From a virus, in the IMG/VR virus record IMGVR_UViG_3300026484_000056, positions 1-22,291 of that record: a stretch of 22,291 nt of DNA, one strand, 5' to 3'. The position numbers and the translations under genes were made by a program. Positions 2,569-20,357 of the stretch are shown one piece after another (the first letter of the stretch is position 1; each line of letters opens with the position of its first letter). The notes below the pieces were generated by a model. The model was given only the letters and a program-made list of their open reading frames with translations, ran no database searches and had not been told where the DNA came from.

Positions 2569-3051
2569 ATGGCAGTAACACAGATACCATTTACAGATTT
2601 CACACAAAACGTAACTACAGATGCTAACAACGTTGTAACAGGTGATGGTGTATTTGATGATATGATGGAGTCAGTAAACAAACATATTGATGCTCAGTAC
2701 CAATTAGGACGTATTACTGGTGCTGATTACTCACAAGTATATTTAGGTGCTCTACAGAGTGCTATGAGTGAGTCTATGAAGTTCGTACTCCAACATAAGA
2801 TTGCAGAAGAACAAACAGATAGCGAAGCTGCTAAATCTAAACTTATTGAGCGTCAGACTAAAGGGTTTGATGATGATGCTAAAAATAAGTTACTTAAACA
2901 ACAACTTGATAGCTGGTCTGTTGCTTACTCAGTTGCTAAAGATGCACAATCTATCCCAGATTCTATTAAGGTAAACCCTATTGACAGTACTATGAAATCA
3001 GCGATGGATGCTTTAGGTATCACTGTTACGACTAACCCATTGGGAGAGTAA
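2569..3051 (+). CDS. Small helical virion protein (N4 gp54-like position)
   Basis: This 160-residue, mostly helical protein contains GVFDDMMESVNKHIDAQYQLGRITGADYSQVYLGALQSAM (about residues 27-66, quoted here only as a landmark: DDMMESVNKHI then YLGALQSAM). The pattern 'small protein with a KHI-aQ...GaDYa.vYlgalqs' is common in virion proteins of N4-like and other large podoviruses and myoviruses. A Lys/Gln-rich amphipathic helix follows (about 85-130). AAGGA is placed six bases before the ATG (AAGGATTAAATATG). No catalytic residues are apparent. Its stop is one base before the acyl-carrier gene start, so it is the upstream boundary of the accessory cassette. Function beyond virion association is not known to me. 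Confidence 0.6.
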   Translation: MAVTQIPFTDFTQNVTTDANNVVTGDGVFDDMMESVNKHIDAQYQLGRITGADYSQVYLGALQSAMSESMKFVLQHKIAEEQTDSEAAKSKLIERQTKGFDDDAKNKLLKQQLDSWSVAYSVAKDAQSIPDSIKVNPIDSTMKSAMDALGITVTTNPLGE

Positions 3052-3052
3052 C

Positions 3053-3301
3053 ATGAACGAAACTGAACAAGATATACTAGATACAATGAACCAAGTTATA
3101 AGAGAAGAAAAAGGTATGAGAGTTACTATTAATAGCTCTCTTAAAGATGCTAACTTAGATAGCTTTGGTTACACTGTACTGTTTCTTGAGTTAGATGATA
3201 AGTACAACATTTTTATAGATGTCCCTGTTGGTGAAGACCCTTATGCAACTATTGACTGGGATACTATAACTGTACGTGAGGTTATAGAGAGATGTATGTA
3301 A
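3053..3301 (+). CDS. Phage-encoded acyl carrier protein
   Basis: The 82-residue acidic protein has the four-helix length and pattern of an acyl carrier protein: helix 1 about residues 3-19, a loop, and then the LDSFGY motif with the phosphopantetheine-accepting Ser at residue 37 (D36-S37, compare D-S-L in bacterial ACP). Helix 2 reads YTVLFLELDDKYNI, matching the recognition helix that docks partner enzymes, and helix 4 ends TVREVIERCM. It would carry acyl groups as thioesters once a 4'-phosphopantetheinyl transferase, not encoded in this window, has modified Ser37. The start is one base after the previous stop, with GGGAGAG upstream, and the end overlaps the ketosynthase gene by 10 nt. Both point to coupled expression with that likely partner. 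The host ACP could also be a competitor. Peptidyl carrier function cannot be excluded. Confidence 0.85.
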   Translation: MNETEQDILDTMNQVIREEKGMRVTINSSLKDANLDSFGYTVLFLELDDKYNIFIDVPVGEDPYATIDWDTITVREVIERCM

Positions 3302-4158
3302 AAGAGTATAAACATTTAGTACCAACTAATGACAATGGTGACCATATACAAGTAGAAGGTATCTCTAGAGAAGGTTATACCACTAAAGAATATCTAACTA
3401 AAATTAAAGCTCCCACATTAACTACTAGAACCGCTGTGTTATATGCAGGCGGTTTTAATATACATCAATCTGAAAGTCGAGATGTATCATCTGTTAATCC
3501 TCGTCATATTGGTTCAGTAAATTATCAACCAACTAGTATGGTTATTAAAGAAAGTACTGCTTATAGTCTCCATCAATGGATTGGAGCTATGGAACATAAT
3601 GAATTAGTAGTATATGCATCTATAAATTCAAACACATGTGCTAGTTCTATGTTTTCTTTATATGAGGCAGAGAGACTACTTAAAGAAGGTGTATGTGAAG
3701 AAGTAATTATTATTGCTGAAGAACGTACAAGTTTTAACACTCTTCGTATTTTTAAGGAACACAGAGTTCCCCTAGTATGTGGTGATGGTTTTGCAATGTT
3801 AAGATTAACTCTTGAACCTACCCCCTACGAAATAAAAGAGACTAAATGGTTTTACAGTTATGAGAGAAATCCATTCCAAACTACAGGTAAAGCTTATATA
3901 CACGTAGACACTGATGAACCAGTAGATAATATTAAGCCTCATGGTACAAGAACTCCTAGTAACAACTTAGCAGAGGAAGAATTAGTTAAAGATAGAAATG
4001 CTATTTACTATAAAGATATTACAGGACATACACAAGGAGTAAGTGCAATACTTGAAATATGTATGTTAATAGAAGACCTTGATGTACAAGGTAAGACATT
4101 ATGTGTCGCTAGTGGTTTAGGGGGCTTTTATGGGAGCTGTATTTTACACAAGCATTAA
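3292..4158 (+). CDS. Beta-ketoacyl-ACP-synthase-like (thiolase-fold) enzyme
   Basis: The 288-residue protein carries the active-site set of condensing ketosynthases. The nucleophile Cys116 lies in SNTCASSM, followed by an amphipathic helix (SLYEAERLLKEG) and a beta strand EEVIIIAEE, as after the catalytic Cys in FabF/FabB. His217 is in PHGTRTP (canonical HGTGTP), and Lys241 and His246 are in KDITGHTQG (canonical KxxxGHxxG). The C-terminus LGGFYGSCIL corresponds to the GFGGxN strand. It is much shorter than FabF (about 410 aa), and spacings between motifs are compressed. Gly-to-Arg in HGTRT and loss of the following GD are departures that may alter acyl-chain choice. It would condense or transfer acyl groups from the adjacent ACP (inference); decarboxylation-only or acyltransferase activity is possible. 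The start overlaps the ACP gene by 10 nt and the end overlaps the next gene by 29 nt. Confidence 0.82.
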   Translation: MYVKEYKHLVPTNDNGDHIQVEGISREGYTTKEYLTKIKAPTLTTRTAVLYAGGFNIHQSESRDVSSVNPRHIGSVNYQPTSMVIKESTAYSLHQWIGAMEHNELVVYASINSNTCASSMFSLYEAERLLKEGVCEEVIIIAEERTSFNTLRIFKEHRVPLVCGDGFAMLRLTLEPTPYEIKETKWFYSYERNPFQTTGKAYIHVDTDEPVDNIKPHGTRTPSNNLAEEELVKDRNAIYYKDITGHTQGVSAILEICMLIEDLDVQGKTLCVASGLGGFYGSCILHKH

Positions 4159-4645
4159 AGGTGAATATTCAAAAGTTCCTTGTACACTAGATGATATAGA
4201 TACAGATGTACAAACCATTAAAGATATTCTTTTGGCTCAAGGGGAAGTTTTAGAAAATGAACAAGAATACATAGATAATATGGTTCAAAGTATTTACCAA
4301 GATAAAGCTTTCGCTATATATAAAGATGGTGTTAGACTTGGTTTTATGTATAATCGTGAAGATAAAGCATTTCCTCGTAGGCTTGTAGCTAGTAGTTTAG
4401 TAGCTCCAAAAGACCCTATAGCAATGGTTATACTTATGATGACTATTAACTTGGGTAAGTATAAATTTCTGATAGTGTTTCCACATGGTAGAAACCTTAT
4501 ATCGTTTAAATCTTTTATTACTCGTAAAAGTATGCGTATGTATAATTGTGGTGCTAGACCATACGTTAAAATATCCCCTAGAGAGCACTCAACTACAACA
4601 CTTAAAAGATTTATTAAGTTGTTTCAAATTAAAAAGGTTCGTTAA
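4130..4645 (+). CDS. Unrecognised protein of the ACP/ketosynthase cassette, possibly GNAT-like
   Basis: I do not recognise this 171-residue protein. Predicted layout: strand 1 near the N-terminus (AVFYTSIKG), helices about 22-58, a strand-turn-strand (AFAIYKDGVRLGFMYN, about 64-79), strand RRLVASSLV, helix PIAMVILMMTINLG, strand KFLIVFPHG, then a basic C-terminus with SFKSFITRKSMRMY and KRFIKLFQIKKVR. The order of strands and helices resembles a GNAT-type acyltransferase, and such enzymes can take acyl groups from ACP. I see no unambiguous R/Q-x-x-G-x-G/A cofactor loop, so that reading is weak. Its start lies inside the ketosynthase gene behind AGGGGG, and its TAA overlaps the ATG of the next gene by one base (TAATG). 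Its role is therefore probably tied to the ACP and ketosynthase. Confidence 0.6.
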   Translation: MGAVFYTSIKGEYSKVPCTLDDIDTDVQTIKDILLAQGEVLENEQEYIDNMVQSIYQDKAFAIYKDGVRLGFMYNREDKAFPRRLVASSLVAPKDPIAMVILMMTINLGKYKFLIVFPHGRNLISFKSFITRKSMRMYNCGARPYVKISPREHSTTTLKRFIKLFQIKKVR

Positions 4646-6816
4646 TGAGTGCAGTTGTTAAGTTTGTAAAAGATGTTGTAGATGTTGTTGTAGAAGCTGT
4701 TGTGGCTATATGGGATGCAATTGGTGATGTATTGGAATGGATGTGGAAAGAAATAGGTATGCCTATTTTAGAATTTGCTTTTAGTTTGCTAGGTATTACA
4801 GATGAGGATATTATATCCACTGAAGTTATAACTCAACGTATTATTCAAGATACAGATAGTTATAACTCAGCTATGACTAGGTTAGCTTTAATGCATCAAG
4901 ACGACCCAAATGGTAGTGTTATAGAACATTATGTACAAGTAGCTAATAATATTAGAGGTAAATTTGGTTTATTCTATGAAAAAGGTAAAGCCTCCGCTGC
5001 TGGATTACCCTATACTAATATTAGAAGTATGTATCTAAACCCAGCTATAGTAGTAGACCCCATAGAAAGTACTTATGATATTAGTGGTATTACAATTATG
5101 TCTGCTAATAAAGCTGCCCCTGATAAATACCAATGGGTAGGTTATCAACTACGTTCTAGTAATAACTATGATTCTAGTAATATGACATTGGATATAGATG
5201 GTAATGAATATTCCGTTACTGCTATTGATTATGATTATGACACTGATAAGTATGTAGTTACTTGTAGTCGAACAATCACTGAGGATGATGGTACAACATC
5301 CACTGATACACAAACTATTGAAGTAGATGCTTATGTTCCCCAACTACACGCAGTAGTGAAATACTATGAAAATGATGATGACACTAAGTGGTTCTGGTGG
5401 GTATATAAGATTGGTTCAGGAACTTACCCAGCTATTGATGATGCTATTACTGCTATCGGTACTTTAGAACTTATGCCTATTGTACCTTTGAGAAATAATT
5501 TTGTTAATACTAATTCCAATAAATCATCCACTGCTTACATACAAAGTAAAGAATTATTAGATACCTTGGGTGTAGATATTGATGACCTTACTGCCAGTAT
5601 TAATGCAAGTCCTGATATTGGTAATGTAGCAGATGCTTTTGTCCATCTTAGTGTGAATTTAGCTGATAATACACCAGAAATCAATAAGTTAGTTTACGAA
5701 ACATTTGCTCAAATGTATGAAGATTCTGGTTTATACGACCCGGGTACTCTGGACTCCAATGGAGGAGTAGCTAATGATGGTTATGCTGCTGTAATTAAAG
5801 AAGGTGCATACAATGTTATATTAGGATGGAAATCCCAGAATAAAGTAATTACTTATGGACGTATTGGTACTATAGGTACATATAGTAAATCAATTAGTGG
5901 GGATTCTCTAATAATGAGAAAACAAGCTACCGAAGAATACTATATTACTTACACTATGACTGTAGTTAATGGTATGACTCTTATAGACCGTTCTGGTGAA
6001 GTTGGTGCCACACAAAAAAACCTGACAGATGGTATAGAGATACCTCTTAGTTTTTTTGCATTAAATTCTTTGGATACAAGTGAACAAATGAACGTGTTTC
6101 CTTATGCTCTAAAATTTAGTATTTATGCAGCAACTATAACTCACTTAGAATGGTACGAGACAGAAGCCTTTGGTAACTTTATTAGAATATTAGCTATAGT
6201 TGTAGCAGTAATTGTTACAGTACTAACATGGGGTGCAGCTTCTTCTTTTGGGGCTTTTCTAATATCCATGGTTGAAATGATTGGTATTGGTTTAGTTGTT
6301 GGATATGCTATGAAAAAACTTATGGAATCTGGAGCACCTGATTGGTTAAAGGCTGTGGGTGCTGTCATATTAGTTATTGTTGCTATCTACTTAGGTAACT
6401 CAGCGTCAGCCGGTGAATTCCTTAATGCAACTCAATTATCTGCAGCTGTTACTTCTTCTGCATCCTCTGTTATTGGTACAGCTGCAGCAGCAGTATCTGG
6501 ATTAGCCAATGGACTTATTGCCTATGAACGAGTAAAACTAGATGAATTGGAAGATGATTCTAAAGCCTTTCAACGTGAAGCAGACCTAAGACAAGAAACA
6601 ATAGATGATGCTTATGAACATTTAACACAAGGTTTAGATGTTAATGAAATACAGTGGTTGATGGACAAAGAACATCCAGAAGCATATCTTAGAGGTACTG
6701 ATGCTTTCATGTATAGAGCTAAAGGAGGCATACAATATGAGTATGCTGCACTATTTGACTATAATGTACATAAAGATGATTTTATTAGTAACAAATTAAA
6801 CGTTGGGATAATATAG
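4645..6816 (+). CDS. Large virion protein with membrane-active segments
   Basis: The product has 723 residues in three visible parts. The N-terminus (about 3-50) is an almost uninterrupted Val/Ala/Ile/Trp-rich stretch that would form membrane-active or amphipathic helices. The middle (about 60-500) is a soluble, beta-rich domain full of Asp, Thr and Tyr. The C-terminal third has three strongly hydrophobic segments (about 513-533, 537-558 and 570-590), then a small-residue helix and a charged tail. Proteins of this type sit in the virion of N4-like phages and are thought to be delivered into the host envelope with the internal proteins. The exact function is not known. Synteny with N4 gp53 is suggested by order only. 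It starts by a TAATG overlap with the cassette gene before it, so the accessory cassette feeds directly into its translation. Confidence 0.6.
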   Translation: MSAVVKFVKDVVDVVVEAVVAIWDAIGDVLEWMWKEIGMPILEFAFSLLGITDEDIISTEVITQRIIQDTDSYNSAMTRLALMHQDDPNGSVIEHYVQVANNIRGKFGLFYEKGKASAAGLPYTNIRSMYLNPAIVVDPIESTYDISGITIMSANKAAPDKYQWVGYQLRSSNNYDSSNMTLDIDGNEYSVTAIDYDYDTDKYVVTCSRTITEDDGTTSTDTQTIEVDAYVPQLHAVVKYYENDDDTKWFWWVYKIGSGTYPAIDDAITAIGTLELMPIVPLRNNFVNTNSNKSSTAYIQSKELLDTLGVDIDDLTASINASPDIGNVADAFVHLSVNLADNTPEINKLVYETFAQMYEDSGLYDPGTLDSNGGVANDGYAAVIKEGAYNVILGWKSQNKVITYGRIGTIGTYSKSISGDSLIMRKQATEEYYITYTMTVVNGMTLIDRSGEVGATQKNLTDGIEIPLSFFALNSLDTSEQMNVFPYALKFSIYAATITHLEWYETEAFGNFIRILAIVVAVIVTVLTWGAASSFGAFLISMVEMIGIGLVVGYAMKKLMESGAPDWLKAVGAVILVIVAIYLGNSASAGEFLNATQLSAAVTSSASSVIGTAAAAVSGLANGLIAYERVKLDELEDDSKAFQREADLRQETIDDAYEHLTQGLDVNEIQWLMDKEHPEAYLRGTDAFMYRAKGGIQYEYAALFDYNVHKDDFISNKLNVGII

Positions 6817-9296: not shown

Positions 9297-12200
9297 ATGA
9301 ATATACAAAAACAACCTCAAGGGTTAGCTTTACTGCAACCCTCTGAAGGTATAAACCCTAATGACCATTCTTATGATATTGGTAATGGTGCTATGGCTAA
9401 TGTACAAATGCAAACTATTGCTAAACCTCTATTTGAAGCTAAGGCTCAAGCTTTAGCAGAAGCTGCTAAACAAAAAGAATTAGCTATTAAAGGTAATCAA
9501 CCTGAAACTCCCGAAATATCTCTTGATGAAGCCTTATATGGTGCTACAGATGGTAATACTAATACTGATGATAGTTTATGGCGATTATTTGGTAGTGAAA
9601 CACAATCATTACTAGCAGATACTGCAGACTTAGTTGCTACAGGTGGTGCTTATTTTCATAAAGGTTTATCTGATTTAACAGGTACAGACTATTATTCACA
9701 AGAAGATTTTGATGCTACACGTAATTACTTTGACCAATTTTCTGGAAAAAATGCAGATGAAGTTTGGGGGTATGATAGAACCCGACTTAATGCACAACAA
9801 GCTGATGTTGGTAAAGCAGTTGAAGAAGGTAGATGGGGTGATGCATTTTTCGGAGGTCTTAGAGCCTCTCCAGGTACTATTACACAAAGTTTACCTACTA
9901 TCCTATCATTCTTTGTAGGTGTAGGTGAAGTTAATGCTGTTAAAGCAGCAGGTACTACTGCGTTCAAAGCTGCTAAAGCTACTGGTATGAGTACTAAAGC
10001 TGCCAAAGCAGTTCAAGCAGAAGCTACTAAAGCTGCTAGAAAACAGTTAAATCTAGCTACCCGTGTATATAATTCAGCTGGAAAAAATGCTGGGCTATTA
10101 AATTTTACATCTGTACAAACTAAAAAAGATGGTGAAGAGTTTGCAAAAAATAATGGTGGGCAATTCCCAACAGCCACTCAATATATGCGTATGTGGGGAA
10201 CTAACTTATTTATGAACAGCCTTGATAAAATGGCATTTAAAGATATTGTTAGTTTCCGTAAATCTGGTACTGCTAAAGAAATTTGGGGTAAATTAGATAA
10301 ACCAGCTAAATACAAGGTAGCTAAAGCTACAGCAAAGTTTATTGCATCTGGTGCTCTAAACGCAGGTAAAGAGGGTATGCAAGAGTACATCCAAGAATGG
10401 GGTCAAATATTCAATCAAAATTGGGGTACTAAAGATACTCAAAATTTCATAGATGTATTTAATAAAAAAGGTAATATTGAAGCCCTAACTGCAGCGTTTC
10501 TTGGAGCTGGTGCTGGGGTTGCTATGGGTACACCTAGTAACCTCAACACTCTTAGACAAGGTCTTAATAAAGATGCCGGGCTTAACGCATTATACAACAA
10601 CCCAAAAAATAATGTTGATGCTGGGTATGCAACTACAGAAGACCAACAAGCTCATTCTGATTTATTGGGTCAAGAATATAATGATGCAGAACAGGCATTT
10701 AATACACTTAGTACCGCAGAAAAAGAAATTAATAGTGTTAATTCGGCTAATACTGCAGCCATTGACCAAGTAAGTAAAATACAAGCTATACTAGCCCAGA
10801 CTGGTACACATGCTACAGATTCTCAAGCTAATGAGCTAGTTAAACAATTTGGTGCTCCTGAAGTACAACAATTACTAAAAGCTATTTCAGCTAATGAAGA
10901 ATTGGCTAGTAGCTTTGATAAAGAACAATTAGCTCAAGTATTAAGTGAGCAACCTAGTAATGCATTTAATGCTCTTGGTTCTATGTTAGCAGAAAGAGCT
11001 GACTTACTAACTCCAGAGATTAAAGAAACATATAATAATGCTAAGACATCACTAGAAAGTCAAGCTGATACAATTATACAATCAGGTGCCCATAAAGTAT
11101 CTTTTGAACAAGCTAAGAAACAACTAAATAGAAGTGGAGATGTTGCTAAATCCACTAAAAACTATATTGACAGTAAAGCTAAACCTGTAACAGGGGATAA
11201 AGCAACAATTGTTGCCTCAGCTAAAACTAAAAAAAGCAAACAAGCTAATATTGTAAAGCGTGCTATTGAAACACTTACTGGTAGAGGTAGTTTAAATGAG
11301 GCTGAGAAACTCTTATCTAGTTATGATGACCAAACACTTAAAGATGTTATAAAAGAGGCTCAGATACAAGCTAATCAATATGCTAAGATACAAAAGGTAC
11401 AACTAAGTTCACCTAATTTATCTAAAGCAGCAAAACTTAAAGGTGCAATGAAAAAATTACCTGAACAAGTTAAAGCTGAACAAATTATAGCTGCAGCTAA
11501 AAGACTCAGAACTATACGTAAAAATGTTGCTAAAACATCTTATGCAAAACCTAAGTCACTTAAAGAACAATTTACAGAATTTACTCAAAGTAAATTAGCC
11601 GATTTAAAGGTTGCTGCTGACAAGGTTAAAGCAGAGCGTAATAAGAATAAAGCTGAACCAAAAAATACAAATAGTAAGCCTGATAAAAATAGAATCTCTA
11701 AAGAAGATAAGAAAATTATTAAAGATGCTAAGGTTATGGTAGTTACAGCTAAAAAAGATTTAGATAGTATTAGTAAAGAAGACTTACCAATATTAGAAGA
11801 AGCTATTGACATATTAGTTAAAGCTGGTAACTTTGGGGAAAAATTTGGTAAGCAATTACTCGCTGATGCTAAGGCTAAATTTGAAGAATCTGGTGTTAAA
11901 GATGTGGACCTATCTACTGAAAATATTAAAGCTGGTGTTAAAAGTGCAAACACAAGAGTTATGAACGCTATTAAAACTGGAACCAAAGAAGATGTAAAAA
12001 ACACTGTAGATAGCGTTATTACAAAACTTACTAATAAAATTAAAAGTAAGCTAACCCTTAGTGAAAAAGAATTTCTGGCTAAGGTTATTGGTAAAGCAGT
12101 AGCTGCAGGAAAACTTACTAATGAAGAAGCCCAGAATCAACTTAACAAATTAGTTAAACTTGATGAAGTAGACTTATCAGTAGATGGACTTAAAAAGAAA

Positions 12201-12572
12201 TTACAGGAAGCCTATGGTTCAATTGTAAACTTTACTAAAAATACTGCTAATAAAGAAACTCGTGAAAATATGGAAACTTCTGTTAAAGAAACAGTGAAGA
12301 AAAAAGTTGATAGTTTCAAAGAATCTGAATTAGGTGCTGAATTATCAGAAGATTTTGGTACAATTACGGAAAGCTTAATAACTGCAAAACGTAAAGGTTC
12401 AGTTGAATTACGTAAACAGTTCAGAAAATTTAAAAAGAAGTATGATAATACTAGTTCTTTAGAAATATATCAAAATATTAAAGGTGTCTTTGAAGACCTT
12501 GTAAAGGGTAAGGATACTAAAATAGTAGATGAAGTTCCTGGAACAGACATAAATACAAATAAGGATTGCTAA
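9297..12572 (+). CDS. Probable N-terminal half of a split virion RNA polymerase / ejection protein
   Basis: The product is 1091 residues. Residues about 75-175 form a compact acidic domain with Trp, Tyr and Asp (SLWRLFGSETQSLLADTAD, NYFDQFSGKNADEVWGYD). Two hydrophobic or glycine-rich segments follow (about 196-212, LPTILSFFVGVGEV; about 396-412, LTAAFLGAGAGVAMG), flanking a helical region with the EGMQEYIQEWGQ motif frequent in giant phage ejection proteins. The remaining 650 residues are Lys/Ala/Glu-rich helices, likely an extended alpha-helical rod. N4 virion polymerase has about 1000 residues before its catalytic core. This protein has that length and ends with TAA directly before the ATG of the catalytic protein, in the same reading frame. 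I read it as the polymerase N-terminal domain encoded as a separate chain. An independent ejection protein is the alternative. Confidence 0.6.
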   Translation: MNIQKQPQGLALLQPSEGINPNDHSYDIGNGAMANVQMQTIAKPLFEAKAQALAEAAKQKELAIKGNQPETPEISLDEALYGATDGNTNTDDSLWRLFGSETQSLLADTADLVATGGAYFHKGLSDLTGTDYYSQEDFDATRNYFDQFSGKNADEVWGYDRTRLNAQQADVGKAVEEGRWGDAFFGGLRASPGTITQSLPTILSFFVGVGEVNAVKAAGTTAFKAAKATGMSTKAAKAVQAEATKAARKQLNLATRVYNSAGKNAGLLNFTSVQTKKDGEEFAKNNGGQFPTATQYMRMWGTNLFMNSLDKMAFKDIVSFRKSGTAKEIWGKLDKPAKYKVAKATAKFIASGALNAGKEGMQEYIQEWGQIFNQNWGTKDTQNFIDVFNKKGNIEALTAAFLGAGAGVAMGTPSNLNTLRQGLNKDAGLNALYNNPKNNVDAGYATTEDQQAHSDLLGQEYNDAEQAFNTLSTAEKEINSVNSANTAAIDQVSKIQAILAQTGTHATDSQANELVKQFGAPEVQQLLKAISANEELASSFDKEQLAQVLSEQPSNAFNALGSMLAERADLLTPEIKETYNNAKTSLESQADTIIQSGAHKVSFEQAKKQLNRSGDVAKSTKNYIDSKAKPVTGDKATIVASAKTKKSKQANIVKRAIETLTGRGSLNEAEKLLSSYDDQTLKDVIKEAQIQANQYAKIQKVQLSSPNLSKAAKLKGAMKKLPEQVKAEQIIAAAKRLRTIRKNVAKTSYAKPKSLKEQFTEFTQSKLADLKVAADKVKAERNKNKAEPKNTNSKPDKNRISKEDKKIIKDAKVMVVTAKKDLDSISKEDLPILEEAIDILVKAGNFGEKFGKQLLADAKAKFEESGVKDVDLSTENIKAGVKSANTRVMNAIKTGTKEDVKNTVDSVITKLTNKIKSKLTLSEKEFLAKVIGKAVAAGKLTNEEAQNQLNKLVKLDEVDLSVDGLKKKLQEAYGSIVNFTKNTANKETRENMETSVKETVKKKVDSFKESELGAELSEDFGTITESLITAKRKGSVELRKQFRKFKKKYDNTSSLEIYQNIKGVFEDLVKGKDTKIVDEVPGTDINTNKDC

Positions 12573-12575
12573 ATG
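12561..12575 (+). promoter_or_regulatory. Shine-Dalgarno deciding the start of the polymerase gene
   Basis: AAGGA at 12561-12565 lies seven bases before the ATG at 12573, the same sequence and nearly the same spacing used before the other late genes. The upstream frame's TAA (12570-12572) sits between them. This makes re-initiation at 12573 the expected event, rather than readthrough, although the two frames are in register. Confidence 0.7.
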
Positions 12576-15500
12576 GCTTGTAATGATTTGCAAATTGTAC
12601 AAACAACACCTGATACAAAAGTTCTTCATAGTAAAGATGAAGTAAAACAAACAAGATATGATGCATCAGTCATAAAAGACTCGATGCTACACACTTTACT
12701 TACTGGGTCAAAAACTGAAGTATCAGAAATGTGGGAGAGTCTATTTGGCGATAAAGGACTTTTATCTGGTTTCCGTTCAGTTAGAGATAAAACTAGGGCT
12801 CTTCGTAAATATTTTAAGACAGAACCTCTTGGAGCTAAGATTGGTGATTTATCAGAGGGAGAAGCTAGACCTATAGCTATCGCTTTAAATCATTTAATGG
12901 CAGTGCAAAAATCTGAAGAAGACTTAATCACTAAGTATAAACTAACTAAAGAAGAGATTGCTCAGGTTACTGACATGGATAATGACATGGAGAACCAATA
13001 TAATACTTCGTATTCAAACATGGCTCGTACAATCGGTAGAGATATACTTAAGTCAAGAGGTTATAGACTGATACCTAAGACTAAAAAAGGTGTTACACTT
13101 GCAATTGAACAAGAGATTAAGGAAGGGGAAAAAGCCCTAGAAATGTTAAATAAACGTGGGCTACTTAGTATTAATGAAGATGGTTCTATTATTAATAGAC
13201 ATTTTAGAAAGAGTGATGGTAGCCCAGATATGTTTAGTGCTGATAGAAAAGAAGATAAGGCTACTCCTCTAGTATCTAATATCAAAACTGTAACACTCAA
13301 AGATTTATTCCCTGAAGACATCTATAAAAATAGTGCTGAGCGTTTAAAAGATATGGAATTATCTCTTGGTAAGATTAAAGCTGTTAATAAACTTGTACTA
13401 CCCTCAAATAGCTCTATACCACATAGTGAAGCTCAACCTATTAATGAAGCTATTCAAGATATGGAAAATACTAAAGCTACTCGTGAAGTTATTGAACAGG
13501 TCCAACAAGCTCCCCTAAAAATACAGGGGATGTTTGGTGAAGCTCTAAAAGAGCTAAAGGACTTAGTAGATAAGTCTGATACTTACCAAACTACTAATGA
13601 CTATTTGATGTCTTTGACTAAGTACGTGAATGGTACTAGAGCTAGTAAATTTGTATTCGGTACAGTTGATACTGCAAATATGTATGATGCATACACAGAT
13701 GATATGACCGGTATTAACCAGCAATATGGAAAGTCTATATCTAAGACTTTAGGATTCACTAAGATGTTTGATGACTTTGATAGTCTTATAGATAGTGAAT
13801 TATACTTTACTTATCAAACAGCTAAACAGAACCGTCTATTCGTATTTGAACAAACACTTAACTACCAGACTGATAACTTCCTTGCTCGTCCTATTCTTGG
13901 TTCACCAGAAGTACAAACTTTAGGTAAAGAAGAAATAGACTATATGCTTGGTTACCTAATTGATGAAACTGGTCTTACTATGGAGGAAATTCTTGGTACT
14001 GGTAAAAGTACAACTAAGAGTGCTTTAGTAGATAAATATATTAAATCACTATCTAATACTAAAGCTAGTAAGCTTGGTGTTATATTAACTATTGGTAAAG
14101 ATATGGAAAAGGGTGTATCACCTATACCTATTGGTAAAGTTAAATCTGCATGGGATGTTGCTAACTATATGAACGCTATTAATGATATTCGTAAAGGATA
14201 TAAAGATGGTCAAGTAAAGACACACTTCCTAGTCAAACCTGATGCAACAGCTTCTGGTGCACTTATAACCGTACTACAGGCTAGTGGTAGAACTGCAAAT
14301 GCTGCTGAAGTAACTAAAGAATTAGTACTAGGTAAAAGAGTGTTTGATAAGGGTACTGAAACAGAGATAGAAAAAGATTTTACAGATATGTATGAGTTGT
14401 CTACATTTGAACTTAAAAAGCGTCTTGATGCCTCTAAGGAAAAAGTTGGGGATGAGATGGATGCATTAGCAGCTCGTAACAATCCTGCTTTAGACTTAAT
14501 GCATAAGATTATTGACCCTGACACTGGAGTTATTAATGGTGCCAGAGATTTGATGAAATTACCTTTTACTAAATTTATCTATGGACAAGCAGCTTACAAT
14601 AATAAGTTAGAAATTTCTAAAGAGATTACTAGTGAAATTATAGACACAAATAATGTTGGTCTTATGAAAGCTATTCTAAACACTAAACCGGATGAGGAAT
14701 TACCTACAGGTTCAGAATTACGTATTAAGCTTATTGCTAAACTTGTTGAGAAAAAGGGTGTAGCTGATGAACTAGTCAGTATTGTTGAAGAAACTACAGG
14801 TGAACAACTATTTAAAGAGCAATCGGAAGAGTTGGAGGCTATCCATGAGCTATTGGAAGCTGCTAGATTTAGTGAGGGTACTCAATATGACCAAATACAA
14901 ATAGTACCCCCATTAGCAGCTTTAGAAGCTGAGAATATAAATGATACTATTAACTACGAAAATATCCGTAGTGACTTTGGCACTACTATTGAAAAATGGA
15001 ATGAAGCTGTTGTAGAAACAGGGGATGCTACTCTTACAACCATTAAAAAACACTTTCCTAATATGAACTCTATTAAAGTTCTGTTACAACACATGACAGA
15101 TGCTGCTATCCTAGTTAAAGCTATGGAAGCTGTATATACTAAACCCGAATTTAAAGACTACAAAAACGGGCTTATGCTTAATCATGATAGTGTTGGTTCA
15201 ACTGCTGCTTTTGCTATTGCACTAGAAGTAGAGTATAAAAAACAAATTATGGAAGTAAATAAGAACTATGACTTTGTTGAAGCTGCCTATAGAGAATTAA
15301 AATATGCTAAAGATAGAGTTAATGACCCAGTATTAAAAGCTAAAATGGAAGATAAGATTGCCAAATTAGAATCTGAATTACCGGCTATAATTAGTAAAAA
15401 ACAAGCAGCTATCGGTAATGAAGTTATTGAAACATCTTTTGGTATTAAACCCAAAGTTAAAAAACTTGTGGCAGAGAGTAATCTTGAGTCAGATGTTACA

Positions 15501-18500
15501 GCAAAAGTTACCGAAGATAGTAATGCTAAGCAAGAAGTAACTACGAGTAACAAAAAAACTTTTACACAGAAAGAGATGAAACAATCTATTGTAAATACTC
15601 TTAATACATTTCAAAATACACCACTTGGTAAAATTGGGCTTGTAGCACTTAGTAAAAATCCGGATGTAAATATTGTTATTGATGAAAAATACAATGATAA
15701 TAATCATTATGACCTTGCCTCTAATACTTTATACTTTGGTTCAAAAGGTAGTAAAGAAATACTAGTACATGAATTAGTCCATGCAGCAACGGCTCAAGCA
15801 ATTGAAACTGACCCTAAATTTGCAGCTAAAGTTAGAGAACTTTATGAAACTGCTAAAAAGGCTAAAAAACAATTTACTCGTATAAGTGCGACTAAACATG
15901 TTGATGGAGTTACTACTAACATTTATGTAAACTTTATGGATAAGTTTGAGGCTATGGATGAAGCAGATGTATTACATGAGTTTATGGCTACAACACTTAC
16001 TAATCCTGAAATGGTTAAGGAATTATCTAAAGTATCTTTTGGTAGAAAACTTATTAATAAAATCAAAGAAACTATTCTTGGTTTATTGGGTCTAGATGAA
16101 AAGACTTATAATACTGTATATGGTCAAATGTTGGAAACATTTACTGCTGCTAAATATGATGGTGATAAGGCTTCACCAGCAAAGACACTAAACTTTATTG
16201 ATGTATTAAATGAAACATATACTCCGTATTCCCCAGACTTAGATAAAAAGACTGAGGGTGTCGATAAAGTTACACAACCAATAGCGGATACATTTGTTAA
16301 TCTTGATGCAAAAATGGCTAAACTTATACAGTCTAGTTTGGATGCATCTATTGACTTCACAGCTAATAAACTTAAAGGTAAAGATTATCATGATAAGATG
16401 ATGAAAAAATCTCGTATATACAGAGATACTTTTAACGCTGTACAACGTCAGTGGGATGAAAATACTCTAATAGGTAAACTTAAAATCTATATGAACTTAG
16501 ATGATAACTTTGACTATAAGGCAATGAATAAAGTTATTACTCAATCTCTTCACGCAGAAGAGCGTAAAGCTGAGCTAGAACAGAAAGAAATCAATAAGCT
16601 ACAGAAATCTATGAAGAAACTATTTAATGCCTCTGAGACAGCTCAAATGCACGCATTACTAAGTGAAACTCCATTATTTAATCTTGAGCCAAAAATGATA
16701 CAAGATATTCTTACAGGTACTATCACTATTGACCAAGCTATTGATACAATTAAAAGTAATCCTAAACTAAACAAGAATCAACTTAAAAATGCTGACACTA
16801 TTGCTGAGGGTCTAGCAGAATTTTATATTAACAAAGTACCACCTAAAACTGGTTTCAAAACAGATTTAAAATTACCTAAAGGTATTAAAGATACAACATC
16901 TAAACTATCTGCTTTATACGCAATGAAAAAAATAAAAGATGTAGATGTTTTACTAGCGGATATTAATGGTAATAAAGCTAAACAAGAATTATTTAGTGAG
17001 TTACTAGATATATCTATAGCTAATAAAACTTTAGATAATGAGTTAGATTCAACTATATCTTATGAAATTGATAAACACTCAGGTAATCTTAACCACATGG
17101 TATTTGAAACTAATAATGAGATTAAAGTAGTAACTACTCGTAATATTAATCAAGTAATGGCTAATGGTTTAGGTTGGAAAATACTTAGAAAACCTACAAA
17201 AACTCAAGCTGGTATTGTATACCGTGATGCTGGAGATATATCTTACCAAGGTGGAGCAGGAGTTAATCTTAAGACAGACCCAAATATAGATTTAAGACTA
17301 CCTAGTGAATTTGAAGCATCAACTAATACTGCTGTTAATAATTCTGGTTCAAGAGCTAAAATCATACTTAAGAACCATGAATTAGACACACTTGGTTATG
17401 TACGTAATCCTGTGTATTCCTTAGTAAAAGGACATACTCACAGAATGATGTTACTAGAAACACAAGCTATTAGAGAAGAAGTTGTAAATAAATTTACTTA
17501 CTCTGACAAAACTAAACCTACTAAAATTGAAAAAGACATAAAAACAGGTAAACATTTATGGTATATTAAATTACCAAAAGGTACTACATTAGCTGATATG
17601 CCTGAATTAGTACAGAAAAAATATACTGCTTCTAGTGCTAAATCTGATGTAGCTGGATTTGAAGGTGAAGTAACTTTAGTGCGTAAAGACATCAAAGATT
17701 TTATCGAAGGTTATAAAGAAATTCAAATAGGTGAAACCGGTACAACATTAAATAAAGCGTTTAATATCCTTAAAAAATCTATCTTACTACAGAAGATACA
17801 CTGGGTTATTACAGCTCCTACAAAAATAGCTAGAGATGCTATATCAAATGTGTCTTATCTAATGAGTAGAAATGTACCTGTAAATGTTATATACTCAAAA
17901 ACTAAAAGAGTCATGAATGAAATGACTGAGTTGAACCAATTAAGAGAAGAATTATTACACGCTGAATTTAAAAATCGTGTAAAAACAACTCCTGCTATGG
18001 TAGCTCGTATAGCTAAACTAGAGAATGACATTAAAATTCATCCATTGGCTGCAGCACACTTTAATGGGTTTATTCAGTCACTAGCAATTGAATTATCTAG
18101 TAAGAATGAACATACAATTAGTGGGTTGCACAAAGATATATCTACTCTATTAGATTACTTATTTAAAGACGACAAAGATGCTCTAAATATTGCAGGTAAC
18201 GCAATAATGAAAATGAGTAAATTTGGTATTAACGGTGAAGACCTTCTTATTGCTGTAGCTAATAAATTTGGGTCAAAAGCTAAAAGTTCTAGTACTAAAG
18301 CTATGGCAGCAAGCCTAAAAGAAATGGGTGAACATATAAAAGATATTAAAGAAGAGGAAGATATTAGTGCTTATGTGCAAGAGTTTTTAGGTACTCCTGG
18401 AACTTCAATGGTAGCTATAGGGTCTGCAGCTGTACAAGCAGTAGATGTAGTTGCTAAAGTTATTGATTATGAACATATAATGGATAGTAAAGTTAAGAAG

Positions 18501-18860
18501 TTTAATAAGGATAATGGAAGAAAACCAAGTAAGACTGAGCTTACTAGTATGAGTGAAGATGCAGCACAAGAAGCTCTAGAGAACTTCATTGATTATAAAG
18601 TAAATATACCTAGAGAGTTTAGATTACTAGAACAAACTGGTATTACAAGCTTTATCTCGTTTACATCTAGAATTCAGAGAATTATGTTTAGAAGTCTTAG
18701 AAATAATCCTGTAAATGCAATGTTTACAATATTGTTTAATGACTTACTAAATTTAGAGGGTGGCTCGACTATATTCGATGCCAATATCTTTGAACGAGAT
18801 ATTATTAGAACTCCATCATTTGGAATGGATGTAATATTTCCTACAAAAGTATTTGGATAA
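12573..18860 (+). CDS. N4-type virion RNA polymerase with zinc-protease motif
   Basis: The 2095-residue protein has the three motifs of T7-superfamily RNA polymerases in order and at suitable spacing. Motif A is KPDATASG with Asp557. Motif B is R658-DLM-K662-LPFTKFI-Y670-G671, an exact R-x3-K-x7-YG pattern. Motif C is MLNHDSVGST with His871-Asp872 (T7: IHDSFGT). These supply the two metal-binding Asp residues and the NTP-contacting Arg/Lys/Tyr. Further on, HELVH (1066-1070) followed by HEFMA (1135-1139) resembles a gluzincin zinc peptidase with a downstream Glu ligand. The last 950 residues are helical and include a hydrophobic-basic region (HWVITAPTKIARDA) and FISFTSRIQRIMFRSL near the end, as in giant ejection proteins. 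The polymerase would be packaged, injected and transcribe early genes from hairpin promoters (known for N4). N4's protein is one chain of about 3500 residues; here the N-terminal part is a separate gene. Confidence 0.87.
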   Translation: MACNDLQIVQTTPDTKVLHSKDEVKQTRYDASVIKDSMLHTLLTGSKTEVSEMWESLFGDKGLLSGFRSVRDKTRALRKYFKTEPLGAKIGDLSEGEARPIAIALNHLMAVQKSEEDLITKYKLTKEEIAQVTDMDNDMENQYNTSYSNMARTIGRDILKSRGYRLIPKTKKGVTLAIEQEIKEGEKALEMLNKRGLLSINEDGSIINRHFRKSDGSPDMFSADRKEDKATPLVSNIKTVTLKDLFPEDIYKNSAERLKDMELSLGKIKAVNKLVLPSNSSIPHSEAQPINEAIQDMENTKATREVIEQVQQAPLKIQGMFGEALKELKDLVDKSDTYQTTNDYLMSLTKYVNGTRASKFVFGTVDTANMYDAYTDDMTGINQQYGKSISKTLGFTKMFDDFDSLIDSELYFTYQTAKQNRLFVFEQTLNYQTDNFLARPILGSPEVQTLGKEEIDYMLGYLIDETGLTMEEILGTGKSTTKSALVDKYIKSLSNTKASKLGVILTIGKDMEKGVSPIPIGKVKSAWDVANYMNAINDIRKGYKDGQVKTHFLVKPDATASGALITVLQASGRTANAAEVTKELVLGKRVFDKGTETEIEKDFTDMYELSTFELKKRLDASKEKVGDEMDALAARNNPALDLMHKIIDPDTGVINGARDLMKLPFTKFIYGQAAYNNKLEISKEITSEIIDTNNVGLMKAILNTKPDEELPTGSELRIKLIAKLVEKKGVADELVSIVEETTGEQLFKEQSEELEAIHELLEAARFSEGTQYDQIQIVPPLAALEAENINDTINYENIRSDFGTTIEKWNEAVVETGDATLTTIKKHFPNMNSIKVLLQHMTDAAILVKAMEAVYTKPEFKDYKNGLMLNHDSVGSTAAFAIALEVEYKKQIMEVNKNYDFVEAAYRELKYAKDRVNDPVLKAKMEDKIAKLESELPAIISKKQAAIGNEVIETSFGIKPKVKKLVAESNLESDVTAKVTEDSNAKQEVTTSNKKTFTQKEMKQSIVNTLNTFQNTPLGKIGLVALSKNPDVNIVIDEKYNDNNHYDLASNTLYFGSKGSKEILVHELVHAATAQAIETDPKFAAKVRELYETAKKAKKQFTRISATKHVDGVTTNIYVNFMDKFEAMDEADVLHEFMATTLTNPEMVKELSKVSFGRKLINKIKETILGLLGLDEKTYNTVYGQMLETFTAAKYDGDKASPAKTLNFIDVLNETYTPYSPDLDKKTEGVDKVTQPIADTFVNLDAKMAKLIQSSLDASIDFTANKLKGKDYHDKMMKKSRIYRDTFNAVQRQWDENTLIGKLKIYMNLDDNFDYKAMNKVITQSLHAEERKAELEQKEINKLQKSMKKLFNASETAQMHALLSETPLFNLEPKMIQDILTGTITIDQAIDTIKSNPKLNKNQLKNADTIAEGLAEFYINKVPPKTGFKTDLKLPKGIKDTTSKLSALYAMKKIKDVDVLLADINGNKAKQELFSELLDISIANKTLDNELDSTISYEIDKHSGNLNHMVFETNNEIKVVTTRNINQVMANGLGWKILRKPTKTQAGIVYRDAGDISYQGGAGVNLKTDPNIDLRLPSEFEASTNTAVNNSGSRAKIILKNHELDTLGYVRNPVYSLVKGHTHRMMLLETQAIREEVVNKFTYSDKTKPTKIEKDIKTGKHLWYIKLPKGTTLADMPELVQKKYTASSAKSDVAGFEGEVTLVRKDIKDFIEGYKEIQIGETGTTLNKAFNILKKSILLQKIHWVITAPTKIARDAISNVSYLMSRNVPVNVIYSKTKRVMNEMTELNQLREELLHAEFKNRVKTTPAMVARIAKLENDIKIHPLAAAHFNGFIQSLAIELSSKNEHTISGLHKDISTLLDYLFKDDKDALNIAGNAIMKMSKFGINGEDLLIAVANKFGSKAKSSSTKAMAASLKEMGEHIKDIKEEEDISAYVQEFLGTPGTSMVAIGSAAVQAVDVVAKVIDYEHIMDSKVKKFNKDNGRKPSKTELTSMSEDAAQEALENFIDYKVNIPREFRLLEQTGITSFISFTSRIQRIMFRSLRNNPVNAMFTILFNDLLNLEGGSTIFDANIFERDIIRTPSFGMDVIFPTKVFG

Positions 18861-18995: not shown

Positions 18996-19071
18996 TGGCA
19001 TGCCCGAAAGGATTTGAACCTCTGACTTGAGAATTTGGAATTCCCTACTCTACCAGCTGAGTTACGGACAT
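18996..19071 (-). tRNA. tRNA-Trp (CCA)
   Basis: The full cloverleaf is on the minus strand. The acceptor is ATGTCCG/CGGGCAT (one G-U pair), and the D arm is ACTC/GAGT. The anticodon stem GGGAA/TTCTC encloses loop TTCCAAA, giving anticodon CCA. The T arm is AGAGG-TTCAAAT-CCTTT, the discriminator is G and the CCA end is encoded. It is the last tRNA of the cluster in transcription order. Confidence 0.95.
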
Positions 19072-19102
19072 ATAGCAAGGGTAAATGTTAGTTATTTGAT
19101 TG

Positions 19103-19177
19103 TGGATGGGGTAGTAGGACTCGAACCTACGAATGTCACGCCCAAAACGTGATGCCTTACCGCTTGGCGATACCCCA
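19103..19177 (-). tRNA. tRNA-Gln (TTG)
   Basis: The acceptor TGGGGTA/TACCCCA is fully paired. The anticodon stem TCACG/CGTGA encloses loop TTTTGGG, giving anticodon TTG. The T arm is GTAGG-TTCGAGT-CCTAC and CCA is encoded. The weak 1-72 U-A pair is a typical glutaminyl-tRNA identity element. Confidence 0.95.
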
Positions 19178-19184
19178 ATAATTA

Positions 19185-19272
19185 TGGAAGAGTAGACAGG
19201 ATTCGAACCTGCGGCAGAATTATCTGCGTCTGTTTAGCAAACAGATACCTTAAACCACTCGGTCACTACTCT
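19185..19272 (-). tRNA. tRNA-Ser (GCT)
   Basis: The 88-nt tRNA has a long variable arm, as expected for a class II serine tRNA. The acceptor is AGAGTAG/CTACTCT. The anticodon stem TCTGT/ACAGA encloses loop TTGCTAA, giving anticodon GCT for AGU/AGC codons. CCA is encoded. Confidence 0.95.
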
Positions 19273-19277
19273 ATACA

Positions 19278-19362
19278 TGGTGGAGAGAGTTGGCTTTGCA
19301 CCAACGAACCCTAGGGAACAGATTTACAGTCTGTCTGCTTTGACTAACTTGCATATCTCTCC
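19278..19362 (-). tRNA. tRNA-Tyr (GTA)
   Basis: The 85-nt class II tRNA has acceptor GGAGAGA/TCTCTCC and discriminator A. The anticodon stem ACAGA/TCTGT encloses loop CTGTAAA, giving anticodon GTA. It has a long variable arm and an encoded CCA. Only one base separates it from the next tRNA. Confidence 0.94.
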
Positions 19363-19363
19363 A

Positions 19364-19439
19364 TGGCTGCGAAACCAGGACTCGAACCTGGGACATGAGA
19401 ATTAACAGTTCCCCGCTCTACCGACTGAGCTATGACGCA
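19364..19439 (-). tRNA. tRNA-Asn (GTT) with a defective acceptor stem
   Basis: The anticodon stem GGGAA/TTCTC encloses CTGTTAA, giving anticodon GTT. The D arm and T arm (CCAGG-TTCGAGT-CCTGG) are canonical and CCA is encoded. The acceptor stem TGCGTCA/TTTCGCA has two adjacent mismatches (5-68 U-U and 6-67 C-U), so only five of seven pairs form. It may still be functional, but the stem is unusual. Confidence 0.88.
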
Positions 19440-19444
19440 ATAAA

Positions 19445-19521
19445 TGGTTACCCTAGTAAGACTTGAACTTACGACCTGCGGTATCGCAAACCGCTGCTCT
19501 ATCCAACTGAGCTATAGGGTA
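19445..19521 (-). tRNA. tRNA-Arg (GCG anticodon)
   Basis: The 77-nt tRNA has acceptor TACCCTA/TAGGGTA fully paired. The anticodon stem GCGGT/ACCGC encloses loop TTGCGAT, giving anticodon GCG (reads CGC and, by wobble, CGU). The T arm is GTAAG-TTCAAGT-CTTAC, the discriminator is A and CCA is encoded. Most bacteria read these codons with ACG deaminated to ICG, so GCG is atypical. It is the first tRNA of the cluster in transcription order. Confidence 0.92.
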
Positions 19522-19524
19522 ACT

Positions 19525-19542
19525 TCACCAGTTTCCTGGTGA
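19525..19542 (-). other. GNRA-capped hairpin upstream of the tRNA cluster
   Basis: Read on the minus strand it is TCACCAG-GAAA-CTGGTGA, a perfect 7-bp stem closed by a GAAA tetraloop, three bases before tRNA-Arg begins. The GNRA loop exists only on this strand. It may be the 3'-terminal stem of the upstream structured RNA or a leader/processing hairpin of the tRNA transcript. Confidence 0.6.
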
Positions 19543-19552
19543 GTATGGCAGC

Positions 19553-19581
19553 ATTGTACCAAAAAAGATGTAAAAATACAA
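19553..19581 (-). promoter_or_regulatory. Possible sigma70 promoter for the tRNA cluster
   Basis: On the minus strand TTGTAT (19581-19576) is followed after exactly 17 bases by TACAAT (19558-19553, 5 of 6 to TATAAT). Transcription would begin just before the GAAA hairpin and run through the tRNAs. The -35 box is poor (3 of 6). The tRNAs may instead come from a long transcript through the structured RNA. Confidence 0.35.
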
Positions 19582-19855
19582 TACTACATATTGATGTAAA
19601 TCAACAAAAGGAGTTTATATGAATAAATTTGATGTAAGTCATCACCTTACAACTTATTGTCTGTAGTTGTCAAACAGTGTGCATGCATAGCTAGTTTCCA
19701 TTTGGATAAGCTAATTCGTGGTAGCCTTGATTTTTTACTATGTGCTATTTCAAACCCAATCATTCAGGGATTTCACTATGAGGGAACATCAAACTTTTAA
19801 GAACCCGATAATAAACTTACTAGACAATTTCCGTTGCTAGTATAGAATCTCATTC

Positions 19856-19939
19856 AAGTACTTACTAGAGCCAAGTTGCCAATTTTTACCGTGTTTTTGG
19901 TGGCTGCTTTACTTGTAGTTCTTGGCTCCATAAGTACTT
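19856..19939 (-). other. Long hairpin in the structured RNA
   Basis: AAGTACTTA (19856-19864) and GAGCCAAG (19868-19875) pair with CTTGGCTC (19921-19928) and TAAGTACTT (19931-19939). This gives 17 Watson-Crick pairs with a small 3x2 internal loop, enclosing about 45 nt that can fold further (GCCA with TGGC). It is the strongest single secondary-structure signal in the region. Confidence 0.7.
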
Positions 19940-20285
19940 ATTGCTTTTGGACGATTACTCGCTCCCCTGGCTTCTATAATACTCACTGGCAAATTTTGTG
20001 ATAACTCTTCTGCTCAATATTATAGTTAGCTATTTTAAGTCAATCTCGACTATAACTGCTTCCTCCAGTTACCAGGTATGTATATGGTGATTGTCTATTT
20101 ATAGCCCCCGCACACCGAGTATAGGCTAGTTTTTGTCTTTAAAGATGACGGGTTTAACTTTCCCCACTTCTACTAACTTAAAAGTTAGGATTTCCCTTGC
20201 TCTTGATTTATACAGGCTGCGGATGAAAATTCTAATTCCCTTCCTGTGTAAGGTGACGTACAGACCCAATTGGGAATGTATCCAC

Positions 20286-20357
20286 TGGTGGACTATCTTG
20301 GATTCGAACCAAGGACATAACCCGTTAGGGTCTGCTCTACCGCTGAGCTAATAGTCC
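20286..20357 (-). tRNA. tRNA-like element with no decoding loop
   Basis: The minus strand gives a near-perfect tRNA: acceptor GGACTAT/ATAGTCC, discriminator A and encoded CCA, D arm GCTC-AGCGGTA-GAGC, and T arm CTTGG-TTCGAAT-CCAAG. The anticodon arm is GACCC-UAAC-GGGUU, a 5-bp stem capped by a 4-nt loop instead of seven, followed by a 5-nt variable region. Three loop bases are missing, so no anticodon can be assigned. C(UAAC)G fits the UMAC tetraloop class, which folds like GNRA. The element lies in the middle of the candidate giant RNA rather than in the tRNA cluster. It could be a structural or processing domain of that RNA, or a decayed tRNA; the intact pairing elsewhere favours selection. 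Confidence 0.8.

Follow-up and report, generated by a model that had tools for sequence, protein, structure and literature searches.

The window analysed here, a 22.3-kb virus fragment, bears an N4-like virion operon in which the genes for the major capsid protein (675-1883) and a gp55-like protein (1973-2515) are followed by an N4 gp54-like virion gene (2569-3051, plus strand; phrog_2050, virion structural protein, E = 1e-32). The latter forms the upstream boundary of a three-gene cassette, likewise on the plus strand, that encodes an acyl carrier protein (ACP; 3053-3301, 82 aa), a FabB/FabF-type beta-ketoacyl-ACP synthase with a shortened N-terminus (KS; 3292-4158, 288 aa; phrog_35856) and a GNAT-fold protein (4130-4645, 171 aa), a putative acyl-ACP-dependent N-acyltransferase. 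A sequence-only reading of the same DNA had proposed these three ORFs as one coupled cassette, and both the coordinates and the coupling hold: successive genes overlap by 10 and 29 nt, and the last of them joins a 723-aa gene by TAATG at 4645. This next gene (4645-6816, plus strand; phrog_2220, E = 4e-36), homologous to Schitoviridae gp53-like genes, encodes an N4 gp53-like virion protein, the proposed acylation target, whose hydrophobic/amphipathic N-terminal extension MSAVVKFVKDVVDVVVEAVV... (4645-4794, plus strand) was recognised from a gp53-like alignment, contig comparison, motif statistics and a control in the P22 lineage. Downstream of it lie three more ORFs and then a 2095-aa vRNAP-related ORF ending at 18860.

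Several features of the wider neighbourhood may be recorded here. The vRNAP-related region (9297-18860) comprises an ORF of 1091 aa and another of 2095 aa, of which the latter alone matches phrog_2206 (vRNAP family), and that of the Alteromonas phage PT11-V19 is similarly arranged (1000 + 2082 aa). Seven tRNA genes (Trp, Gln, Ser, Tyr, Asn, Arg, Val) occupy 18996-20357 on the minus strand and run against the virion operon. In relatives, genes resembling GIY-YIG homing endonucleases interrupt this operon (L004:3909-4745, L003:2984-3700).

Single-sequence Pfam and PHROG scans were too weak for the window ACP and the third protein, so that profiles and structure prediction were needed. Pfam alone missed the window's own ACP, and its identity had earlier rested on the LDSFGY motif; it is now supported by a profile of 18 N4-type homologues (A9), which found the rhizobial NodF as its best match in the PDB (1fh1, E = 2.4e-5), followed by other ACPs. 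The corresponding profile of homologues from a second phage lineage with P22-like gene order (A10) retrieved numerous ACPs and can itself be aligned with A9, and phrog_28189 is common to the window ACP and the P22-type ACPs. The Asp-Ser pair expected of the DSL/DSF phosphopantetheine site is invariant in 18 N4-type and 21 P22-type homologues (D36 and S37 in the N4-type; LDSFG with Ser37 in the window), in keeping with the ACP fold indicated by both profiles. We assume from sequence that the phosphopantetheine would be added by a host enzyme: no AcpS-type transferase was found in 14 related records, which supports the dependence on host enzymes that had been proposed earlier.

The KS, barely seen by Pfam alone (PF02801 was found in 16 of 18 members, the window member not among them), was likewise recognised by profile, the combined KS profile A5 matching FabF (5sxo) at E = 6.4e-28. 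Cys116, His217, Lys241 and His246 of the window protein correspond to FabF Cys164, His304, Lys336 and His341 (numbered with Met1), and in an alignment with E. coli FabF, FabB and FabH all four are identical in 74 of 74 phage KS, in contrast to FabH, which has Leu and Asn in place of the Lys and the second His. The KS assignment of the sequence-only reading has thus withstood the two findings that it had named as fatal, a protein outside the thiolase fold, for which the profile now indicates thiolase-family homology, and homologues lacking Cys116, His217 and His246. The phage enzymes nevertheless differ from full-length FabB/FabF (~410 aa, Phe gatekeeper) in size (the window enzyme has 288 aa and the P22-type enzymes have ~370 aa) and in the replacement of the gatekeeper Phe by Leu or Met in all those aligned; a quick tree, used for this point only, showed the phage KS groups to be distinct. 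KS matches from Listeria, Enterococcus and Staphylococcus 'phages', at 24-33% identity and in unannotated assembly fragments, were set aside as probably host fabF. In the deposited record MW202545.1 the KS starts at an internal ATG (L001:11800-12900), the conserved start being a GTG at 11800 that overlaps the ACP stop and gives 366 aa. Both KS and ACP are genuine by sequence and appear to be active.

The third protein had been called unrecognised; the ORF stands, while its lack of identity does not. An AlphaFold2 model (pLDDT 84, pTM 0.79) has the fold b1-a1-a2-b2-b3-b4-a3-b5-a4-b6, and the top Foldseek matches in the PDB were all GNAT proteins (probability 1.00, E = 7e-5) at a modest TM of 0.4-0.5, in agreement with a comparison against a viral structure library. 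A GNAT fold is also predicted for the third protein of the P22 type (pLDDT 94), so that AlphaFold2 and Foldseek place both third-protein families in this class. We do not claim common descent of the two families, as hhalign found no link between them; a PDB sequence search with the P22-type profile matched nothing. The Q/RxxGxG/A loop that binds the CoA pyrophosphate was found by regular expression in 0 of 16 N4-type and, at varying positions, in 9 of 71 P22-type members, unlike T7 gp13, in which the same expression detects it; judged by sequence, both cassette families are without the usual CoA loop. Pfam models of HlyC, NodA and autoinducer synthase matched none of 36 cassette GNAT members. 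Asp95 and His119, which may or may not correspond in position to the His/Asp dyad of HlyC, are conserved in the N4-type family. The tandem GNAT domains and strict Gly2 preference of N-myristoyltransferase are not seen here, the cassette proteins being single domains of 143-171 aa and Ser2 being as frequent as Gly2 in their neighbours.

The genome-neighbourhood search suggested by the sequence-only reading returned the same trio in scores of contigs, which excludes chance; the cassette, and the system it represents, is real. In IMG/VR, 51 close relatives of the KS were found, and a profile search raised the number to at least 334 (profile A7 was too diverse to serve for the contig scan). Gene-order counts were taken over 76 non-redundant KS loci, which lie mostly on fragment contigs with start codons picked by rule and are related in sequence, so that the counts are not independent. 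By HMM, an ACP lies immediately upstream of the KS in 73 of 75 loci and a GNAT downstream in 60 of 74, or ~85% overall with additions by eye (a GNAT-like ORF downstream in L018, L072 and L073; in L064 the GNAT is upstream of the ACP). The second lineage repeats the order ACP-KS-GNAT, again just before a virion gene; among its members are MW202545.1 (Manatee Spring; P22-like in gene order despite its annotation as a siphovirus), where the trio precedes the first ejection-type gene, and a Balneolaceae MAG contig. Both lineages share the coupling by ATGA or 10-29-nt overlaps, with the start of the next gene within a few nt.

Cultured phages refine this picture. That N4-type late operons do not normally include ACP/KS genes holds, in that N4 and seven other cultured N4-like phages are without the cassette, gp54 running directly to gp53; the cultured N4-like Alteromonas phages PT11-V19 and R22Y, however, carry ACP, GNAT and gp53-like genes without a KS. 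In L241/L245 the ACP, GNAT and extension are kept while the KS is reduced to a fragment, and in L306 the GNAT alone is retained, with an MG helix. As ACP, GNAT and extension persist without the KS in PT11-V19, R22Y and L241/L245, it is the GNAT that tracks the extension most closely.

These distributions bear on the possibility that ACP and KS are auxiliary metabolic genes by which the infecting phage stimulates or adjusts the synthesis of fatty acids or membranes in its host, with a GNAT that is unrelated or regulatory. Such a reading has been published for the ACP of Alteromonas phage R22Y (PMC11705849) and for acpP of Rhodobacteraceae prophages (PMC8224337), and ACP+KS pairs without a GNAT do occur outside the virion operon (L033, L074, L095, L103, L113, L117). 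The R22Y ACP, however, belongs to the ACP+GNAT module described here, and it is against a role in host metabolism that both lineages have the cassette embedded among virion genes, where its presence correlates with the N-terminus of the protein that follows, that the KS is dispensable while ACP and GNAT stay, and that AcpS-type transferases are missing from the 14 related records. We therefore regard this explanation as unlikely, and the published interpretation of such phage ACPs fits worse than acylation of a virion protein. In L033, L095, L103, L113 and L117 the KS (and the ACP where checked) is followed by a ~102-aa sigma-like protein of helix-turn-helix appearance. The two loci with the ACP one gene farther up from the KS, L082 and L105, are N4-like and lack a GNAT; directly ahead of their portal gene, a putative integral membrane protein of ~150 aa (phrog_33833) is encoded between ACP and KS (L082:6941-8711, L105:913-2704). 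In L082 no GNAT is adjacent and gp53 has no extension. This arrangement puts ACP and KS to another use.

The N-terminus of the neighbouring virion protein changes with the cassette. In cassette phages the next protein bears a hydrophobic or amphipathic N-terminal extension that usually begins M[SG][AGS][VI][VA], a motif present in 58 of 86 unique post-GNAT targets vs 1 of 350 background ORFs (M[SG] alone: 75/86 vs 48/350), and N4-type and P22-type targets have this motif in common without sharing homology. For these N-termini too, start codons follow from a rule, and p-values would overstate independence because the sequences are related. Control sets were gathered independently of the cassette. 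For P22-like loci, collected by the C-terminal domain of the target, 19 of the 21 with a GNAT start with M[SG] and 16 have the full motif, compared with 6 and 0 of the 89 without; in the cultured Caulobacter phage RW, which has the same gene order and no cassette, the target starts MMGDEILVV. For N4-like loci, collected by gp54 in a 52-contig comparison, the extension is present in 16 of 16 cassette loci (13 with an HMM-detected GNAT and three whose third gene, equal in size, is divergent), whereas most of 39 loci without a cassette lack it (maximum hydrophobicity 0.76 vs 0.27). An alignment of 20 gp53-like proteins revealed that non-cassette versions start with MGLFSSK or similar where the extension of cassette phages ends; N4 gp53 and the majority of homologues without a cassette have no such extension.

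Two simpler rules were discarded. A strict association of the extension with the cassette is ruled out by fragment contigs with an extension and no adjacent cassette (amphipathic in L338 and L342, cationic in L316 and L317), and residue 2 alone is an unspecific marker in the N4 group, because gp53 without a cassette also commonly begins with MG. The non-cassette N-terminus MG(L/I/W)FSSK (L136-L138, L141-L145 and gp54-gathered loci) is itself strikingly conserved and recalls an N-myristoylation motif.

The dependence of the helix on the cassette would fit recognition as well as modification: the GNAT might acylate or acetylate the target elsewhere in its chain, or chaperone it with the helix as docking site, ACP and KS serving as acyl source or assembly factors. 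The acyl-ACP-dependent GNAT-fold enzymes HlyC, CyaC and CdiC do modify internal lysines (PMC8339906, PMC8510554). No conserved lysine is evident in the N-terminal helices of the targets, however, whereas residues 2-5 are conserved, and the invariant ACP serine and the KS active site argue for chemistry, which leaves this alternative rather doubtful.

Recurrence of the same gene trio beside a virion protein with a membrane-seeking front end, in two unrelated groups of short-tailed phages, suggests that these phages lipidate a protein of their own particle. In the reading that we prefer, with a probability of roughly 55%, the phage loads its own carrier protein with an acyl group, which the GNAT then passes to the exposed N-terminus of the neighbouring virion protein. 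Host AcpS would first attach phosphopantetheine to Ser37; the phage KS (Cys-His-His, FabB/F type) would then load or extend an acyl chain on the ACP from host malonyl-ACP, and FabG/FabZ/FabI of the host would carry out any reduction that is needed, a reliance on the host pathway similar to that of rhizobial NodE/NodF; finally, the GNAT, fed by acyl-ACP, would acylate the N-terminal amine of the gp53-like protein, the proposed site being the alpha-amine of Ser2 once Met is removed. Such an acyl-ACP-fed transfer would explain why ACP and GNAT form the minimal unit, why the CoA loop is lost, why Ser or Gly, both exposed after Met removal, stands at position 2, why the N-terminal helix is correlated, and why the KS is optional, as it may supply chain length or type. 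The more far-reaching claim, that phages of two lineages possess all the parts of a dedicated system for protein lipidation (ACP, KS and GNAT-fold N-terminal acyltransferase) for a membrane-penetration virion protein, akin to N-myristoylation and virus-made in bacteria, we rate at slightly below even odds. The sequence-only reading had offered acylation of the adjacent virion protein, host lipid remodelling at lysis and a small acylated molecule as options; the first is supported and the other two are less so. The GNAT transfer step, the second phage lineage and the changing N-terminus had escaped it.

Lipid and amphipathic helix together might insert the N-terminus into a membrane at genome delivery. 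The gp53-like gene lies between the tail-tube gene, as the gp54-like gene is identified by position in Moo19/DEV (PMC11654681, PMC10925440), and the ejection-protein genes, and the Moo19 virion protein list includes the gp53-like gp70 (PMC11654681). We infer the entry function by analogy; work on DEV gives the pore role to other proteins (PMC10925440).

Animal viruses and bacterial toxins provide examples of membrane-breaching fatty-acylated proteins; for tailed phages, no report of one was found in the open-access literature. If true, the proposal would mean that entry of short-tailed phages involves a further chemical step, would assign a virion function to phage acpP genes, hitherto interpreted as serving host metabolism, and would make available small acyl-ACP-dependent N-acyltransferases with linked substrates. 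Acylation can be tested directly in the cultured Alteromonas phages.

Among known systems, picornavirus VP4 and reovirus mu1 are myristoylated, combining an acylated Gly2 with an amphipathic peptide on a membrane-perforating capsid protein; there host NMT and acyl-CoA perform the acylation, and the likeness is an analogy only. T7 offers a small gene, GNAT-like by sequence inspection (gp13), immediately upstream of the internal/ejection protein gene gp14, but gp13 keeps the CoA loop (RLSGKA) and T7 has neither ACP nor KS; the open-access literature held nothing relevant on gp13 as an acetyltransferase. The gp14 product starts MCWAAA, and the pair (L139:808-1819) is a possible parallel to the cassette. 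HlyC/CyaC/ApxIC and CdiC resemble the cassette GNATs in fold, in size (~170 aa), in a gene beside that of the modified protein, in an acyl-ACP donor and in missing CoA-binding elements (PMC8339906, PMC8510554), the RtxC enzyme ApxIC being acyl-ACP-dependent without the CoA loop (PMC8339906). They differ in giving no sequence match, in modifying internal lysines and in using a housekeeping ACP without a dedicated KS.

The trio could also make a small acylated metabolite, acyl-homoserine-lactone-like or a lipoamide, with the GNAT acting like LuxI or NodA. LuxI uses acyl-ACP. So does the N-acyltransferase NodA, with NodE/NodF as ACP/KS pair (PMC5080398, where the usual names are swapped; the ACP is NodF by its PDB entry), and ACP, KS and N-acyltransferase are exactly the parts list of NodF/NodE/NodA. 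Yet the GNATs match neither the autoinducer synthase nor the NodA model, and a metabolite would leave the virion-operon position and the correlation with the target N-terminus unexplained, which makes it highly improbable. For acylation of the virion protein, the rhizobial system is nonetheless instructive. It comprises a dedicated ACP, whose structure is the best PDB match of the window ACP family, a KS of FabF type and an N-acyltransferase that draws its acyl group from acyl-ACP, and takes its other fatty-acid enzymes from the host pathway; the acceptor is a chitooligosaccharide there and would be the linked virion protein in the phage. The precedent of NodF/NodE/NodA thus indicates that a trio of ACP, KS and acyltransferase is workable with host housekeeping enzymes.
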